Below, one piece after another: positions 6,028 to 35,251 of a stretch of DNA of 64,000 bases. Under the pieces are notes generated by a model. That model was given only the letters and a program-made list of their open reading frames with translations. It did not search any database and had not been told where the DNA came from. The stretch is taken from NCBI RefSeq assembly GCF_024345415.1, contig NZ_JAGQBB010000005.1, forward strand, positions 62,001 to 126,000, in the 5' to 3' direction. Each line of letters starts with the position of its first letter. Position 1 is the stretch's first letter. The stretch is from Synechococcus sp. Tobar12-5m-g. Lineage in GTDB: Bacteria > Cyanobacteriota > Cyanobacteriia > PCC-6307 > Cyanobiaceae. Both the position numbers and the translations under genes were made by a program.

Positions 6028-7624
6028 GGCGCTGAAGCATCTGCTGGCCGATTTCGAGCGCCTCAGGCACCCGGGCCGCTGCGGCCATCAGTCCGTAGAT
6101 CCCAAAGGCCAAGGCAGCACTGAGCACGCACTGCAGAAGCTGGCCGATCAGGCCGGCCGGCCAGCGCACACCATTGGAGAGCAGCCAGGCGGCCACCCCG
6201 GCCCCCGCCGCGGCCAGCAGGAGCATCAGGCTGTCGCGGCCCCATTGGCGCAAGGGCAGCTTGCCGAGGCGGTGCTGGAGGGCCAGCAGCAGCCCCAGGC
6301 AGGTCAGCACGTTCACGGCCACCGTGGCCATTACCAGCCCGGCGGCGCCGAAGTTGAATCCCGGCAGCTGCAGCCCCCAGGGGGTGGGCCCGCCGACGAA
6401 CAACCAGCAAAAGATCACGTTGAAGCCGATCCCGGCCAGTGAGAAACGGAACGGCGTGGTGCCATCGCCAAGGGCATAGAATACGCGCACGATCACGTCG
6501 CGGCCGAGGTAGGCGGGCATGCCCACCCCATAGGCGATCAGCAGGCTTGTCACCAACTGGGCCGCATCCCCGTCGAAGGCCCCCCGCTTGTAGATCAGGG
6601 CCACGATCGGGCCGGCCAACCCCACCATCAGGGCCCCGAGCGGCAACATGCTGGCGTTGGAGAGCATCAACCCCTGGCGGATGCGCCCCACCAGGGCCGG
6701 GCGATCGGCAGGGGCCGTCAGCCGGGCGAACACCGGCAGCATCGGCACCAGCAGCGCGTTCGAGATCAAGCCCAGCGGTGTCTGCACCAGCAGGTTTGCG
6801 TAGCCCAGACCGGCCGCCGCCCCCACCATCCCCGAAGCGAAGAACAGGCTGGTGAACACATTGATCTGCAGCATCCCCGAGGAAAGGGTGGCCGGCCCCA
6901 TCACCTGCAGCACCTCGCGCACGCCAGGGTGCTGCCAGTCCCAGACGAGCTGAAAACGGTGCAGCCCCTCCTTGGCCAGGGCCGGCAACTGGATCAGCCA
7001 CTGCAGCACCGCCCCGAGCGTGGTGGTGCCCGCCAGCACCACGCCGCCGAGCACGGCCGTGGCCGGCAGACTGATCTCCGGGCCCAGCAGCCACCAGAGG
7101 AGGCCGATGCCACCGATCATCGCCACGCTTGAGACGAGCGGGCTCACCGAGGGCAGCCAGAACACGTCAGCGGCGTTGAGGGCTCCGAAGCCCAGACCGA
7201 TCAACCCGGCGAACAGGGCCATCGGCGCCATCCAGCGCAGCTGCAGCACGGCGATCGCATGCCGCTCCCCCTCCAGGCCCGGGCCCACCAGGGTGATCAG
7301 CGGATCGGCGGCCAGCACCAGAAGCACGGTCACGGCGAGCAGGCCCACCCCCACCAGGGTGTTGATCGCCGCCAGCACATGGGCCCCCTCCTGGCGGGGC
7401 CGACGGGCCAGAACGCTCACCATGGCGCTGTGAAACGGACCGTTGATCCCCCCCAGCAGGATCAGCAGGAAGCCGGGCAGCACGTAGGCGTAGTTGTAGG
7501 CGTCGTAGGCGGCCCCCACGCCGAAGGCGGCAGCGATCACAAGCTGGCGCAGCAGGCCGGCCACCTTGCTCAAGGCGGTGGCGAGGGCCACGATCAAGGC
7601 GATGCGCCGCAGGGATTTCGCCAT
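6011..7624 (-). CDS. murJ: lipid II flippase MurJ (MviN)
   Basis: Inner-membrane MOP-superfamily flippase that moves lipid-linked peptidoglycan precursor to the periplasm. The 537-residue protein has about 14 hydrophobic segments and begins RRIALIVALATALSKVAGLLRQLVIAAAFG, with the MurJ-typical SKVAGLLR helix. The conserved DVIVRVFYALGDGTTPFR motif lies in the middle. It is divergent from sfsA. Confidence 0.93.
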   Translation of the reverse strand: MAKSLRRIALIVALATALSKVAGLLRQLVIAAAFGVGAAYDAYNYAYVLPGFLLILLGGINGPFHSAMVSVLARRPRQEGAHVLAAINTLVGVGLLAVTVLLVLAADPLITLVGPGLEGERHAIAVLQLRWMAPMALFAGLIGLGFGALNAADVFWLPSVSPLVSSVAMIGGIGLLWWLLGPEISLPATAVLGGVVLAGTTTLGAVLQWLIQLPALAKEGLHRFQLVWDWQHPGVREVLQVMGPATLSSGMLQINVFTSLFFASGMVGAAAGLGYANLLVQTPLGLISNALLVPMLPVFARLTAPADRPALVGRIRQGLMLSNASMLPLGALMVGLAGPIVALIYKRGAFDGDAAQLVTSLLIAYGVGMPAYLGRDVIVRVFYALGDGTTPFRFSLAGIGFNVIFCWLFVGGPTPWGLQLPGFNFGAAGLVMATVAVNVLTCLGLLLALQHRLGKLPLRQWGRDSLMLLLAAAGAGVAAWLLSNGVRWPAGLIGQLLQCVLSAALAFGIYGLMAAAARVPEALEIGQQMLQRLSRRS

Positions 7625-7700
7625 CCAGTCCGTTCCGAAGCCGGGTCAACGGGGTGATTCTCCCCTTCGGTCCGGCAGGATGGCCGGCCGGCCGAGCTCC

Positions 7701-8465
7701 ATGCCAACCCAGATCCTGACCCTGGAGAACCTGGTCGAGGGGGTGCTGCTCAAGCGCTACAAGCGCTTCCTGGCCGATGTGCAACTCACCGACGGCAGAG
7801 TGGTGACGACCCACTGCCCCAACACCGGCCCGATGACAGGCGTGCTCAGGCCGGGGGGGCTGGTGCGCCTCAGACACGACCCCAGGCCCGAGCGCAAGCT
7901 GGACTGGACCTGGGAGCAGGCGCAGGTGATCGGTGCCGGCGGCCAGCTTGGCTGGGTGGGGGTGAACACGGCATTGCCGAACCGCCTGGTAAGAGCCACG
8001 ATCGAGGCCGGCTGCCTGGAGCCCTGGCTGGGCCCGATCGCCTCGATCCGGGCGGAGGTTCCCTACGGCGCCGGCCGACGCAGCCGCATCGATCTGCTGC
8101 TCACCCCGTCGGCGCACGCCGCCGATCCCCGGCCGATCTACGTGGAGGTGAAGAACACCACCTGGAGCAACGGCGACCTTGCTCTCTTCCCCGACACCGT
8201 CACCGAGCGGGGGCAGAAGCATCTGATCGAACTCGCCGCCCTGCTGCCCGGCAGCCGCGCCGTGCTGTTGCCCTGCCTGAGCCGCTGGGATGTGCGGCGC
8301 TTTGCGCCCGGTGATTCCGCCGATCCCTGCTACGGGCAGCTGTTCCGTGCTGCGGTGGCCCAGGGGGTGGAGGTGCTGCCCTGCCGGTATCGCTTCGAGG
8401 CCACCGCCGTCACCTGGCTGGGGGTGGCTTCCGTGGAGGAGCGGGGCCCCGAGGTCAGGGGATGA
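7701..8465 (+). CDS. sfsA: SfsA family DNA/RNA nuclease-like protein
   Basis: A 254-residue SfsA homologue. Conserved blocks are LVEGVLLKRYKRFLADV, HCPNTGPMTGVL, DLLLTPS, YVEVKNTT (PD-(D/E)XK-like core) and DTVTERGQKHLIEL. SfsA was named for sugar-fermentation stimulation in E. coli; the fold is restriction-endonuclease-like and the true role is unsettled. The ATG at 7701 gives the normal N-terminus; an ATG at 7680 is an alternative. Confidence 0.92.
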   Translation: MPTQILTLENLVEGVLLKRYKRFLADVQLTDGRVVTTHCPNTGPMTGVLRPGGLVRLRHDPRPERKLDWTWEQAQVIGAGGQLGWVGVNTALPNRLVRATIEAGCLEPWLGPIASIRAEVPYGAGRRSRIDLLLTPSAHAADPRPIYVEVKNTTWSNGDLALFPDTVTERGQKHLIELAALLPGSRAVLLPCLSRWDVRRFAPGDSADPCYGQLFRAAVAQGVEVLPCRYRFEATAVTWLGVASVEERGPEVRG

Positions 8466-8485
8466 GCAAGGAATTCAGTGTTTTT

Positions 8486-8499
8486 GTAGCGGTGATTAC
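8486..8499 (+). promoter_or_regulatory. NtcA-binding site upstream of amt
   Basis: A perfect GTA-N8-TAC palindrome (GTA at 8486-8488, TAC at 8497-8499), about 97 bases before the ammonium transporter start. About 22 bases downstream lies only a weak -10-like hexamer (TCACTT at 8521-8526). NtcA is the cyanobacterial nitrogen-limitation activator, and amt genes are known targets. Confidence 0.72.
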
Positions 8500-8595
8500 T
8501 TGGTAAATGCCCGACAACCTTCACTTTGGGCGGCGATGGAACGCTGTCATGCGTCACCAAATGCATGTGTACCGTCCTTTGCCAGTGAAAACCCC

Positions 8596-10056
<1,461 letters not shown>

Positions 10057-28202: not shown

Positions 28203-29450
28203 ATGGTGGAGGGTCTCCGCCGCGTCGTGGTCACGGGCCTGGGCGCGGTCACGCCGATCGGCAACAGCGTGTCCCAGTACTGGGACGGATTGCGCACCGG
28301 TCGCAACGGGGTGGCAGCGATCACCTTGTTTGATGCGTCCCGCCATCCCTGCCGGTTTGCGGCGGAGGTCAAGGATTTCGATCCCAGCGGCAGCATCGAG
28401 CGCAAGGAAGCGAAGCGCTGGGATCGCTTCTGCCAGTTCGCCGTCGTGGCGGCGAAGGAGGCCGTGGCCCAGTCCGGGCTTGCGATCCAGGCCGGCCGCC
28501 CGGAGCGGGTCGGGGTGTCGATCGGCTCCGGGGTGGGCGGTCTGCTGATGATGGAAACCCAGGCCCATGTGCTTGCCGATCGGGGACCGGATCGGGTCAG
28601 CCCGTTCTGCGTGCCGATGATGATTCCCAACATGGCCGCCGGGCTCACCGCCATCGCCCTGGGCGCCAAGGGGCCCAGCACTTCGGCCTCCACCGCCTGC
28701 GCGGCCGGCTCCAATGCGATCGGCGATGCCTACCGCCTGATCCAGCTCGGCCTGGCCGACGCCATGGTGTGCGGCGGAGCCGAGTCGGCCATCACACCGC
28801 TGGGGGTGGCGGGCTTCGCCAGCGCCAAGGCGCTCTCCTTCCGCAACGACGATCCCGCCACGGCCAGCCGGCCGTTCGATCGGGAGCGCAATGGCTTCGT
28901 GATCGGCGAGGGCGCCGGCATGGTGGTGCTCGAAAGCCTCGACCACGCCCGGGCCCGGGGGGCTGAGATCCTCGCTGAGGTGGTGGGCTACGGCATGTCC
29001 TGTGACGCCTACCACTACACGTTGCCGTCCCCTGGCGGGGTGGGGGCGGCCGAGGCCATGCGGCTGGCCCTGGCCGACGGCCGGCTCACTCCCGACGATG
29101 TGGACTACGTCAACGCCCATGGGACCAGCACCCAGGCCAACGACAGCAACGAAACCGCCGCGATCAAGGCGGCCCTGGGATCCCGGGCCCTGGCCATCCC
29201 GGTGAGCTCCACCAAATCGATGACGGGTCATCTGCTGGGCGGCAGCGGCGGCATCGAGGCGGTGGCGGCCGTAATGGCGATCGGCCACAACCTGGTGCCC
29301 CCTACGATCAATTTCCACAATCCGGATCCGGCCTGTGATCTGGATGTCGTGCCAAACCAGGCGCGGGAACAGACACTGGACGTCGTGCTCTCGAACTCCT
29401 TCGGGTTTGGCGGTCACAATGTTTGCCTTGCCTTCCGCCGGATGAGCTGA
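28203..29450 (+). CDS. fabF: beta-ketoacyl-ACP synthase II
   Basis: Condensing enzyme of fatty acid elongation, 415 residues. The catalytic triad is complete: Cys in STACAAGSNAIGDA, His in NAHGTSTQANDSNE and His in KSMTGHLLGGSGG. The C-terminus SNSFGFGGHNVCLAFRR is standard. Two TTG codons precede the ATG at 28203, which gives the normal start of VEGLRRVVVTG. Confidence 0.97.
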   Translation: MVEGLRRVVVTGLGAVTPIGNSVSQYWDGLRTGRNGVAAITLFDASRHPCRFAAEVKDFDPSGSIERKEAKRWDRFCQFAVVAAKEAVAQSGLAIQAGRPERVGVSIGSGVGGLLMMETQAHVLADRGPDRVSPFCVPMMIPNMAAGLTAIALGAKGPSTSASTACAAGSNAIGDAYRLIQLGLADAMVCGGAESAITPLGVAGFASAKALSFRNDDPATASRPFDRERNGFVIGEGAGMVVLESLDHARARGAEILAEVVGYGMSCDAYHYTLPSPGGVGAAEAMRLALADGRLTPDDVDYVNAHGTSTQANDSNETAAIKAALGSRALAIPVSSTKSMTGHLLGGSGGIEAVAAVMAIGHNLVPPTINFHNPDPACDLDVVPNQAREQTLDVVLSNSFGFGGHNVCLAFRRMS

Positions 29451-29504
29451 ACGTCCGTTCCGCTCCCCCAGAGGAAACCCTCACCACCCCACTTCTCTTC
29501 CGCC

Positions 29505-31517
<2,013 letters not shown>

Positions 31518-31520
31518 GGC

Positions 31521-31535
31521 TCGGTGCGACACCGA
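31521..31535 (+). terminator. weak terminator-like hairpin after tkt
   Basis: TCGGTG-CGA-CACCGA is a perfect 6-bp stem followed by CTCTTTC, 4 bases past the tkt stop. The stem is short and the T run is poor. Confidence 0.4.
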
Positions 31536-31618
31536 CTCTTTCACCAGGAACAGACACACCGATCCTTTCCTGCTGGGCGTCCGGAAGCCTGGTCCAGGTG
31601 TTTCCATTGGGGGCCTTG

Positions 31619-32734
31619 ATGCCGCACAACCGAAACGCCAACCCAGAACGGCTGTCGATCGTCCTCCCGACCTACAACGAGAGGGAGAACATCGTCAGGA
31701 TTGTGGAGGACCTCCTCCCACTCCAGCAGCACTTTGTTCTCGAGATCCTATTCGTCGACGATGATTCGGCCGATGGAACAGCTGATCTGATCAAGGAACT
31801 GGCGCACCGGCAAGCAGCGGTGCGCCTGATCCGCAGGGTGGGACGGGCAGGCCTGGCCAGTGCCATCAAGGAAGGGATTCTCGATGCCACCGGCGATGTG
31901 GTCGTGGTGATGGACTGCGATGGCCAGCATGAACCGGCGGCGGTTGAAGCCGCTGTCAGGGCTCTTGTCGAATCCGGCGACGATCTGGTGGTGGGCAGTC
32001 GCTTTCACGCCGATGCCGCCATCCATGGGCTGAGCCCGATGCGCACCCGTAACTCCAACTGGGCGAACACGATCGCCCGCTTCAGCTTGCCCGGCTATCG
32101 GCGACTCACTGATTTCATGAGCGGCTTCTTCGCCCTCAGACCGGAGCCAACCTTGCCGTTCGTGCGGCGGGTGGACGTGAACGGGTTCAAGTTTCTCTAT
32201 GAGCTGCTCTCGATTAGCCAAGGGCGGTTGCAGGTCAGCGAGATTCCGCTGTGCTTCAAGGCCCGCATCGCCGGTTCTTCAAAGCTGGACCTGGCCATCG
32301 TCTGGGATCTGGGGGTCTCGATGCTGCACACGCTGCTGCTGCGATCGATCCCTCGCCGTGCGATCAGTTTCGCTCTGGTGGGCTTCAGTGGGGTGGCGGT
32401 CCAGTTGCTCGTGGTTCAGTTCCTGATGGCAGGACTGCAATTTCCGTTTGAGCAGGCTCTGCCCATGGCGGTGGTGGCTGCAGCCACGTCGAACTATCTG
32501 ATCAACAACGCTCTAACGTTCCGTTTCCAGCGACAGCAGGGACTGGCCCTGCTGCAGGGTTTGCTGAAGTTCCTGCTGGTTGCCTCCTTGCCGGTGCTGG
32601 CCAACGTGGGCGTGGCCTCCTCCTTCTACAGCCTCGTGTCCCGAAACACGTTCTGGGCCCAGCTGGCAGGCATTCTGGTGGTGTTCGTCTGGAACTACGC
32701 CGCCTCATCCCGATTTGTTTGGAACACGCCCTGA
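31619..32734 (+). CDS. GtrB-GtrA fusion: polyprenyl-phosphate glycosyltransferase with flippase domain
   Basis: 371 residues. Residues 12-235 are a GT2/DPM1-type domain: VLPTYNERENI, the metal-binding VDDDSADGT and VVVMDCDGQHEP (Asp99, Asp101), and FMSGFFALRP. It would load a sugar, probably glucose, onto undecaprenyl phosphate. Residues 248-370 are a four-helix GtrA domain (ISFALVGFSGVAVQLLVVQF, NYLINNALTFRF, FVWNYAASSRFVW), thought to flip the lipid-sugar. ATG 31619 gives a normal GT2 N-terminus. Its end overlaps the convergent GtrII-like gene by 30 bases; together they could modify surface polysaccharide. Confidence 0.88.
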   Translation: MPHNRNANPERLSIVLPTYNERENIVRIVEDLLPLQQHFVLEILFVDDDSADGTADLIKELAHRQAAVRLIRRVGRAGLASAIKEGILDATGDVVVVMDCDGQHEPAAVEAAVRALVESGDDLVVGSRFHADAAIHGLSPMRTRNSNWANTIARFSLPGYRRLTDFMSGFFALRPEPTLPFVRRVDVNGFKFLYELLSISQGRLQVSEIPLCFKARIAGSSKLDLAIVWDLGVSMLHTLLLRSIPRRAISFALVGFSGVAVQLLVVQFLMAGLQFPFEQALPMAVVAAATSNYLINNALTFRFQRQQGLALLQGLLKFLLVASLPVLANVGVASSFYSLVSRNTFWAQLAGILVVFVWNYAASSRFVWNTP

Positions 32735-34324
32735 GCGGGGTTCCTTCACCGCTCTTCGGTCTTCGGTTGACCAGGTCACCGGCACATCCGGCCCGTAGCT
32801 CTGCAGAGTGACAATCACGGTCTTCCCGTCGAGAAAAACCGAGCCTGCCGAAGGCCAGGGCTTGACATTCTTTGAGACCGCTCGAAGGACGGCGCTCTTC
32901 CGTTCTTCAGTGGTGGGTTGCCGGAACTGCTCGTTGCCCAAGAAAAAATTCAGGATCTCGGTCTGGCGAAAGAGGGCGAAAGCCTCTTTGTTCATTCTAG
33001 GGGCGTCTGTTGTGGGTGGCCAGCGCACAAAGTCCGCAAATTGAAAGGGTGGGTAGCGTCCGATGACCACAAGAGCTGTCCGGTCTTTCGTCGGCAAGCC
33101 CAGTAAGGGCTCAACCCTAACCAGGATCCGATTGATCATGTTGAGTTCATAGGTAGTCTTGAGTTGGGCGGCATTGGAGGCCTGGGTGCCGAAGACCAGG
33201 AAGAACCAAAGCAGCAACCAGGCCAACGGCAGAGCTGCCCAGCGAAGCGCTTGTGGCTGCAGTGCAAGCCCCAGAAGGAAAAAGAGCGCGTAACCGTAGG
33301 CAGCGTAGAACCTGCCTGCATCAGAGGGAGTTAAACTGTTGACGATATTGGAACCATTCACCGCCACCGGAACCAAAAGAACCGCGGCGAAAAGGGCTAA
33401 ATGAGCAGATTGATCCCTGCCCGACCTGGCCAGCAGAGCGATCAAACCCAGGGCAACAAGAATCAGGGGAATCAGGCCGAGCACTCCTCCCTTGGGGACA
33501 CCGCCCACACCGGAGGCTAGATAGTCAAAGAATTTTGAGTAAGATACACTTATTTGTCCAATCGCCTCACCCATGCCGTTGACATGGGTACTTTGCGCGA
33601 TCGGATCTGTGACCACGACCTTCGAGACTAGCCAGAACAGCACAGCCGACAGCAGTAAGGGAGCCGGGGTGAGTAGAACCTCACGCCGGACCGCATGAAC
33701 CTTTAACATGAGGGCCAGATTAAATAGCGTGAAGACACTGACCAAAGCAATCTTCGGAGCATAGGTTGATAAGGCCAAAAAGTAGAAGGTGGAGGTGCCC
33801 AGAATTCGCGTTGAGTCATGCCTGCTGCGCACCCACACCAGCGAGCCCAGAATCACAAACGTATCGCCAATCACGAAGGAAATGTGGTCAGCGGCAAACG
33901 AGTAATAGTCAAGAAAAGCGGGATAAAGGCATATAATTCCAGCCAGCAGGAAGACATATGACTTGCCCTGCAGCCCCACCAACCTGGCAAAAAGAATGCC
34001 ATTCAATGCCTGAAGCATCGCCGCACCGATCATCTGCACGGACTGGACTCCGCTGCCGCCCTGAGCCAGGATGATCAGATCGGCCAGCCATCGGCCTTCA
34101 CTTGATGTCTTGAAGGTTGGATACTCTCCATAGAGCATGGTATTGGGAAAGGTATGGTCCGTGAACGTCATCGCTGTGAAGAAGTAGCTGTAGGCCACGA
34201 ACTGCAGCAGAAGCAGCGCTATGAAGACGAGGCGATAGCGATCGGCCCCTGCGATGAGGCTCTGAAGCAAGGTCCCCACAGTTGTTTTGGTATCGAAAAG
34301 TCTTGTCGTCCATGTCCTCTTCAT
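32705..34324 (-). CDS. GtrII-type glucosyltransferase-like membrane protein
   Basis: 539 residues with roughly ten hydrophobic segments and a soluble C-terminal 130-residue tail. The first loop (FTDHTFPNTMLYGEYPTFKT then SEGRWLADLIIL) and FAADHISFVIGDTFVILG fit GtrII-type transferases, which add the glucose from undecaprenyl-phosphate-glucose to O-antigen on the outer face. ATG 34324 is chosen because GGAG sits 7 bases upstream; ATG 34330 and 34390 are in frame. The gene is visibly richer in A+T than its neighbours (one line, 33541-33600, has 29 G+C of 60), suggesting acquisition. Confidence 0.72.
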   Translation of the reverse strand: MKRTWTTRLFDTKTTVGTLLQSLIAGADRYRLVFIALLLLQFVAYSYFFTAMTFTDHTFPNTMLYGEYPTFKTSSEGRWLADLIILAQGGSGVQSVQMIGAAMLQALNGILFARLVGLQGKSYVFLLAGIICLYPAFLDYYSFAADHISFVIGDTFVILGSLVWVRSRHDSTRILGTSTFYFLALSTYAPKIALVSVFTLFNLALMLKVHAVRREVLLTPAPLLLSAVLFWLVSKVVVTDPIAQSTHVNGMGEAIGQISVSYSKFFDYLASGVGGVPKGGVLGLIPLILVALGLIALLARSGRDQSAHLALFAAVLLVPVAVNGSNIVNSLTPSDAGRFYAAYGYALFFLLGLALQPQALRWAALPLAWLLLWFFLVFGTQASNAAQLKTTYELNMINRILVRVEPLLGLPTKDRTALVVIGRYPPFQFADFVRWPPTTDAPRMNKEAFALFRQTEILNFFLGNEQFRQPTTEERKSAVLRAVSKNVKPWPSAGSVFLDGKTVIVTLQSYGPDVPVTWSTEDRRAVKEPRSGRVPNKSG

Positions 34325-34522
34325 CACCATGCTCCACCACGCGACGCGGTTCGATTGTCCTTGTGGCCTTCCCGGTGTTGCCAATGGCAACCGAAGCTGT
34401 TCACAATTAGGTGTAATGGGGCTCCGGATGACGGCAGTAAACTCAGGGTTGCTTCAAAGTGCGTCACAGGCGCTCTGGCCTGAGCTGCCTGCATCGGGTT
34501 TGGTCGGTGGAATCGCCCCCTT
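34325..34522. other. gap between the GtrII gene and IS debris
   Basis: No gene seen. A CAGGGTTGCTTCAAA-type sequence near 34446 could be the left terminal repeat of the ISAs1-type fragment that starts at 34523, but no matching right end is visible. Confidence 0.3.
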
Positions 34523-34689
34523 GTGCCAGAAGCCACCACTGCTGCAACCGATCTTGATCTGATCAGCTTCCTGCAGGCAATCCCGGACTCACGCATGCGG
34601 CGCGGGATCCGCATTCCTGCCTGGTACCTATTGCTGGTAGCGGTGCTGGGAATCCTGAGCGGCAGCAAGAGCTTGCGGGATCTTGAGCG
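34523..34689 (+). pseudogene. ISAs1-family transposase, N-terminal fragment
   Basis: About 56 residues resemble the start of ISAs1-type transposases (DDE_Tnp_1-associated domain): LISFLQAIPDSRMRRGIRIP, YLLLVAVLGILSGSKSLRDLERY. The homology stops abruptly at 34690, where a 24-base hairpin repeat begins and the IS5-type remnant follows on the opposite strand. The catalytic DDE domain is missing from the window. Confidence 0.7.
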
Positions 34690-34713
34690 CTACTCCTGCG
34701 GAGAAGGCTGCGC
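34690..34713 (-). repeat. 24-base hairpin repeat, copy A (IS junction)
   Basis: Minus strand core CTTCTCC-GCA-GGAGTAG with flanking GCGCAGC. CTCC/GGAG forms a 4-bp stem with a GNA triloop. It lies exactly at the junction between the truncated ISAs1-type and IS5-type sequences, and its TAG ends the IS5 reading frame. It differs from copy B at two of 24 positions. Confidence 0.85.
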
Positions 34714-35063
34714 CAAGAGGATGTTGCTCAGGCGGATCAGGTTGTAGGCGATCACGTGCAGGCCAAACACGGCGCTGACGTTGTCCCGGCCCCGCAGCTT
34801 GAACTGGCGCAGGCCGCCGAATGCCTTGATCCAGCCAAAGATTTTTTCGATGCCCCGGCGGGCATTGATCGATTTGGCGTAGCCCTCATGCCGGGCGGTG
34901 CGGCCATCAATGGCTGAGCCACCGCTGCGGGCCGTGTTCAGGGCCACGTCGGGCGTGACACCGATCCGCCGCATCTCAGCGACAAATCCTTTGGTGTCGT
35001 CGTTCTTGTCTGCGCCGACGGTCTTCTGGTGGGCACCGGCGAGGTGAGGTCTGCTGCCATCTC

Positions 35064-35087
35064 CTACTCCTGCGGAGAAGACTGCGT
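35064..35087 (-). repeat. 24-base hairpin repeat, copy B
   Basis: Removing exactly these 24 bases restores the expected transposase reading GAT GCC ACC AAG | GAG ATG GCA (DATK-EMA). The repeat adds the codons ACG CAG TCT TCT CCG CAG GAG TAG, so it keeps frame but brings a stop. Confidence 0.88.
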
Positions 35088-35227
35088 CTTGGTGGCATCC
35101 CGCTCACCGGTGCCCGTGGCCTGTGTGACGCGGCAATCGACGATCAGGTCATGACGGTTGTCCATCAGCACATGTCCCCGGTAGCTCCGCTGCGCTGGAT
35201 GGGCATTGGATTTGCGGGCCAGCAAGG

Positions 35228-35251
35228 CCACTCCTTCGGAGAAGACTGCGT
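35228..35251 (-). repeat. 24-base hairpin repeat, copy C
   Basis: Differs from copy B at two positions: loop GAA instead of GCA, and TGG instead of TAG at the end. The stem CTCC/GGAG is unchanged. Removing 24 bases restores a TDP-V-ALLARK reading that fits this transposase family, whereas the present frame has eight extra residues. Confidence 0.85.

Follow-up and report, generated by a model that had tools for sequence, protein, structure and literature searches.

The window, the whole stretch of 64,000 nucleotides from Synechococcus sp. Tobar12-5m-g analysed here, carries a pair of converging genes, both of which are found where an earlier sequence-only reading had placed them: a forward-strand open reading frame (ORF) encoding a 371-residue fusion of a GT2 glycosyltransferase with a GtrA/DPMS membrane domain, and a reverse-strand ORF encoding a 539-residue membrane protein related to GtrII (Table 1). 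The fusion gene follows genes that, from their protein sequences, we take to be acpP, fabF and tktA, and the far side of the 539-residue ORF is bordered by transposase fragments, the first of which is presumably of the ISAs1 type. The 539-residue ORF has a GC content of 0.545 and a third-position GC content (GC3) of 0.64, the lowest among the 47 ORFs of the window (median 0.83), which agrees with its earlier description as AT-richer than its surroundings; the fusion gene is also slightly AT-rich (GC3 0.77). The 30-base overlap between the two ORFs is present as first described, but its treatment as a meaningful feature did not hold up. Homologues of the 539-residue protein stop about five residues past a common TW, the window protein has roughly 20 further residues that do not align and are encoded within the 3′ end of the fusion gene, and a functional role for the overlap is rejected, as it is an unconserved C-terminal run-on.

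Table 1. Features of the gene pair and its flanks in the window, and the unfused gene set on another contig (C46, locus L154) of the same genome
Feature	Position	Strand	Evidence or remark
tktA, conserved to the left of the fusion in the window's clade	29505..31517	+	
GT2-GtrA fusion, 371 aa, DPMS-type polyprenyl-phosphate sugar synthase (predicted) with GtrA/DPMS membrane domain	31619..32734	+	PF00535, PF04138, PDB 5mlz; ATG at 31619, stop ending at 32734
Metal/donor motif D99-C-D101-G-Q103-H104 of the fusion	31913..31930	+	Corresponds to DADLQH in the PfDPMS alignment
GtrA/DPMS membrane domain of the fusion, residues 251-368	32369..32722	+	PF04138 GtrA_DPMS_TM, 70.7 bits, E 1.5e-19
Convergent 30-base overlap between the ORFs, where the C-terminus of the 539-aa ORF runs on	32705..32734	.	
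GtrII-like, putative GT-C-type membrane transferase, 539 aa	32705..34324	-	PF14264, phrog_4829, hhalign, predicted fold; ATG at 34324, stop ending at 32705
GRWLAD, residues 77-82 of the 539-aa protein	34079..34096	-	Matches GRPLAD of other GtrII
TDHTFP, residues 55-60 of the 539-aa protein	34145..34162	-	Position of IDD in other GtrII
Transposase N-terminal fragment, presumably ISAs1-type	34496..34693	+	PF13808, 27.5 bits, E 3.4e-6, under the cut-off of 32.3
DDE transposase fragment	34690..34974	-	PF13751, 31.5 bits, over the cut-off of 25.1
C46 GtrII	L154:7682-9172	+	PF14264, 49.3 bits
C46 GtrA	L154:9112-9564	-	
C46 GT2	L154:9561-10532	-	

The 371-residue protein carries PF00535 (residues 13-150, E 7.2e-30) and, further along the same chain, PF04138, and its first description as a GtrB-GtrA type fusion is correct at the level of domains. 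Residues 11-370 align over nearly the full length of the dolichyl-phosphate mannose synthase of Pyrococcus furiosus (PfDPMS; PDB 5mlz, E 7.5e-43), so that the GT2-GtrA fusion as such is already a known layout; the match of the Synechocystis GtrB (5ekp) reaches only E 8e-7, and the GT2 matches in NCBIfam are all sub-threshold. All eleven PfDPMS donor and acceptor residues that were checked (D89, D91, Q93, H94, R117, R131, S135, G158, F177, R202 and K208, with roles as given in PMC5526996) are kept in the fusion and identical in 80/80 fusion proteins, as are the D, D, G, Q and H of the metal/donor motif. According to the same source, PfDPMS combines DADLQH with Gly158, whereas the glucose-specific GtrB has DADLQD and a putative catalytic Asp157. 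The window fusion has DCDGQH and Gly169, corresponding to the QH motif and the glycine of PfDPMS, and the GtrB glucose-synthase signature (the DADLQD motif and D157) is absent from it. These DPMS-type residues make mannose a likelier sugar than glucose, and the glucosylation originally proposed for the locus is not supported. The fusion thus shares with PfDPMS both the one-chain arrangement and the donor/acceptor residues (PMC5526996), and differs in being bacterial, in presumably using undecaprenyl phosphate as carrier and in having a sugar specificity that is only predicted. The Synechocystis GtrB (sll0501) is likewise a cyanobacterial polyprenyl-phosphate GT2 but has a QD motif together with D157, and two transmembrane (TM) helices (PMC4728340).

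The 539-residue protein scores 32.4 bits against PF14264 (GtrII) in a whole-genome profile search with a cut-off of 30; the default hmmscan, with its filters, gives no Pfam match for it. The same stretch, residues 34-409, is covered by its only PHROG match, phrog_4829 'GtrC-like O-antigen conversion translocase' (E 8.8e-8). Within a family alignment of the window protein and six homologues, from which the frame-shifted L044 was excluded, hmmscan finds PF14264 in six of the seven members, that is in all six unbroken GTDB homologues (best 6.3e-14), and hhalign aligns this family with 15 other GtrII proteins, all cyanobacterial and selected from a larger set of GtrII loci, over 457 columns with a probability of 99.5 and E 3.7e-23. 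Confidence in the AlphaFold2 model is low (mean pLDDT 55.9, pTM 0.55), and a plain Foldseek search with it gives no match at E <= 1e-3, the best being PglB at 4.8e-3. In the VIA structural comparison the top 36 rows are nevertheless all GT-C enzymes (Z 9.2-14.9), including Pmt4, OST, PglB, AglB, Emb, DPY19, AftA/B/D, ALG3/9/12, ArnT and PimE, and unrelated rows start at Z 6.0. NCBIfam yields a single chance match and the PDB sequence search weak, chance-level matches only. PF14264 has itself been placed near GT-C families (PMC7801869). The profile score, the hhalign result and the GT-C-like predicted fold bear out the first identification of the protein as a GtrII relative; we take it as a divergent relative and probable GT-C transferase rather than a canonical GtrII, because the IDD signature is absent. 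It shares with the GtrII family homology along most of its length, the GR.LAD stretch and the predicted GT-C fold, and differs in that its subfamily, which comprises eight loci including the window in cyanobacteria, Rhodobacterales and Phycisphaerales, has T[DN]HTFP where GtrII has IDD. Literature searches for GtrII in cyanobacteria listed no paper on the subject.

The two genes differ sharply in distribution. The fusion is found in 159 of 300 genomes of the family (E <= 1e-30) and the 539-residue protein in three, and a profile of the 539-residue family finds one genome among 386 across the phylum. Relatives among GTDB contigs amount to seven loci, five in cyanobacterial metagenome-assembled genomes, one in Rhodobacterales (39%) and one in Phycisphaerales (35%), with L002 and L003, which appear to be the same contigs as L040 and L038, counted once. 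In a tree of 81 rows the window fusion lies within an 11-row clade whose members are all tktA-linked (support 100/86), and the fusion keeps its acpP-fabF-tktA position in this clade. Being widespread and tktA-linked, the fusion is, as judged from distribution and gene order, an old, resident and vertically inherited donor gene, and the rare GtrII-like gene is by the same measure a recent arrival added beside it; the lowest GC3 of the window is in line with the latter reading.

On balance we lean towards regarding the locus as a two-protein form of a three-component extracytoplasmic glycosylation pathway, in which a new acceptor transferase has joined a donor enzyme that was already resident. 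At the cytoplasmic face, the GT2 half of this fusion would transfer a sugar from its nucleotide-activated form to undecaprenyl phosphate, mannose being likelier than glucose, and the GtrA half would hold the lipid-linked sugar and perhaps help to flip it. On the periplasmic side the GtrII-like GT-C protein would take over the sugar and attach it to a glycan of the surface or envelope. The older part would be the donor gene, usually found in relatives beside ArnT/PMT-type GT-C genes, and the GtrII-like gene would have arrived in the variable stretch right after it. The gtrA/gtrB/gtr(type) systems of Shigella and Salmonella (PMC3259042, PMC11127046) likewise consist of an Und-P-sugar synthase, a GtrA protein and a GT-C transferase, with a variable transferase and a constant donor part. 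They differ from the window in that donor and GtrA are here fused and the genes converge instead of standing separately in a co-directional operon, in the DPMS-type donor residues and the transferase lacking IDD, and in that no phage link was found. Apart from the altered signature and the pairing, the parts are of known kinds and a module of a known general kind is plausible.

A serious though less probable explanation is that the two genes are neighbours by chance, the fusion serving PMT/ArnT-type transferases elsewhere, the GtrII-like protein being fed by another enzyme such as the GT2/GtrA of contig C46, and no module existing. One observation against it comes from a Rhodobacterales locus, L042, where a fusion (40% identity; 6755-7942) and a homologue of the 539-residue protein (7935-9479) lie in tandem on the same strand with an 8-base overlap. 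Adjacency thus occurs in two of eight loci (window and L042), for which one of seven is the fair count because the window pair itself drew attention, and the chance of at least one such neighbour in eight loci is about 0.006, assuming two neighbour places among 2800 genes. At the five other cyanobacterial homologue loci the fusion does not adjoin, the L041 contig having almost no downstream flank, and in G162 and G279, the other two family genomes with the 539-residue gene, the fusion lies on a different contig. Co-inheritance of the pair, on which the original proposal of a joint unit depended, therefore mostly fails among relatives and survives in the L042 tandem.

The genome of the window bears on both readings. 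Contig C46 carries a second, unfused set (L154:7682-10532) in which a GtrII gene faces GtrA and GT2 genes with a 61-base overlap; it resembles the window pair in this convergent arrangement and differs in its separate GT2 and GtrA and its GT2 motif DDDLQN, and BLAST finds no significant match between the C46 GtrII and the 539-residue protein. This parallel speaks against chance, but at least one other GT2/GtrA set in the genome could supply the transferase, and the product of the fusion could be used at five PMT_2-type places in the same genome. It also counts against a module that convergent genes are not co-transcribed. More widely, the fusion is present in 23 of the 26 family genomes with any PF14264 match and in 136 of the 274 without (p 1.2e-4, uncorrected for phylogeny). 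GtrA is absent from the stretch compared in 16 of 18 further GtrII loci from the family (L156-L173), some contigs being short, which indicates that a GtrII gene needs no adjacent donor set; the remaining two are L171, with a complete co-directional GtrII-GT2-GtrA row (6181-9352) that argues against chance, and L173, with GtrA about 2 kb from GtrII. For the GtrA profile used here, input row L181 was in the wrong frame or contained stops and L185 was empty, and the control GtrA proteins (L154, L155, L052 and L045) were all found. A GtrA domain occurs somewhere in four of the five genomes holding further homologues of the 539-residue protein. The L042 tandem, the C46 set and the habitual adjacency of the fusion to GT-C-type genes described below lend moderate support to the pairing of the fusion and the GtrII-like gene. 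In the Phycisphaerales genome with a 539-residue homologue, a GtrA domain is fused to a long multi-TM part (L179:1113-3071) that looks ArnT/PMT-like by eye, Pfam confirming GtrA only.

The place behind the fusion was surveyed in 79 loci, a non-random sample of the 159 in which the first 20 are mostly the most similar and the rest were mainly chosen for genus spread; L115, a misplaced stretch lacking the fusion, was left out of the original 80, and the genes in these stretches are script-picked ORFs rather than annotation. The order fabF-tktA then fusion, as in the window, occurs in 13 loci, with one additional gene between in L110. Seven of these have thiC 1.6-9.4 kb past the fusion; it was not found within 9.9 kb in L048 and 8.0 kb in L110, and the remaining four contigs end within about 2.1 kb of the fusion. 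The stretch between fusion and thiC varies among the tktA-linked loci: it holds a solute-binding protein (by Pfam in L045, by likeness in L046), CorA/SulP-like genes recognised by eye (L050 and L051), an additional GT2, alone or with GtrA (L049, L052 and L054), a PMT_2 transferase (L111) or an unannotated 8-TM protein of low GC3 (L048). The last was considered as a GtrII and rejected (hhalign probability 0.1, no Pfam match). The thiC gene of the window genome is on a different contig, C46, and the place behind the fusion has thus been rearranged. An ArnT/PMT_2/DUF2079-type gene, an assignment confirmed by Pfam on chosen examples, stands within 400 bases of the fusion in 53 of the 79 loci, all of them among the 66 that lack the tktA linkage. 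Many low-GC family loci (L089, L104 and others) have membrane transferase-like genes on both sides of the fusion, PMT-like upstream and PMT_2 downstream, in many cases with DUF2079 further on.

A bolder extension of the two-protein reading, which we offer tentatively and think unlikely as a whole, is that the stretch behind the fusion acts as a plug-in slot, in which a constant donor is combined with exchangeable acceptor transferases (ArnT/PMT types, PMT_2, extra GT2/GtrA and here a GtrII relative), and that the GtrII subfamily works by a T[DN]H site instead of IDD, perhaps with polyprenyl-phosphate mannose. Provided that the pairing is real, members of this cyanobacterial family would change their envelope by placing acceptor transferases next to a constant fused donor, and the locus would give simple genetic access to surface variation and to interactions with phages and grazers.

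The earlier proposal of an acquired O-antigen glucosylation cassette, in which both genes arrived together and add glucose to lipopolysaccharide, is very improbable. Its domain make-up does resemble gtrA/gtrB/gtr(type), and the AT-rich gene and IS remnants favour acquisition; the part of the proposal that stands is the recent arrival of the GtrII-like gene by the IS remnants. Joint acquisition is for the most part contradicted by the counts of 159/300 against 3/300 and by the tktA-linked clade, which mark the fusion as resident, and the fusion residues are of the DPMS rather than the GtrB type. Phage derivation likewise found no backing, as the collections of viral contigs, phages and plasmids contain no relative of the 539-residue protein.

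The altered signature introduces some doubt about the enzyme itself. The IDD criterion is drawn from the first periplasmic loop of the 15 other cyanobacterial GtrII proteins and is not a curated rule; the first Asp is present in 15/15 of them and the second in at least 90%. MAFFT and hhalign alike align these two columns to D56 and H57 of the 539-residue protein, and all seven aligned subfamily members have T[DN]H in place of IDD, with D at the first position in four, N in three and H at the second in every member. Because of this alteration, transferase activity of the GtrII-like protein is not certain. That the protein is catalytically altered or inactive, and may bind or handle a lipid-sugar in the membrane rather than transfer it, is suggested by these substitutions, on which both alignment methods agree, but is highly doubtful, since the His and the GR.LAD stretch are kept in members from cyanobacteria, Rhodobacterales and Phycisphaerales alike, a sign that function is retained, and conserved acidic residues are reported as non-critical in GtrIV (PMC3259042). 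The loop provides a natural test of the residues needed by GtrII-type GT-C enzymes.

Some smaller observations concern the flanks. A 78-base match of window 34444-34521 to locus L047 was rejected as ancestral flank and is more likely an IS end, because the L047 contig stops 25 bases further on. When window 29000-32734 is compared with L055 and with L045-L054, tktA and fabF are most similar to those of the same-genus L055 (92/89%), but the fusion is nearer to that of another genus (85 vs 78%), and these differing closest relatives make it possible that a recombination break separates tktA from the fusion. A 23-base palindromic repeat (core CTCCTGCGGAG) is present in three copies inside the IS remnant (window 34690-35250) and elsewhere in the genome at only two places, both on contig C30, and is possibly a small element that is mobile or serves recombination.
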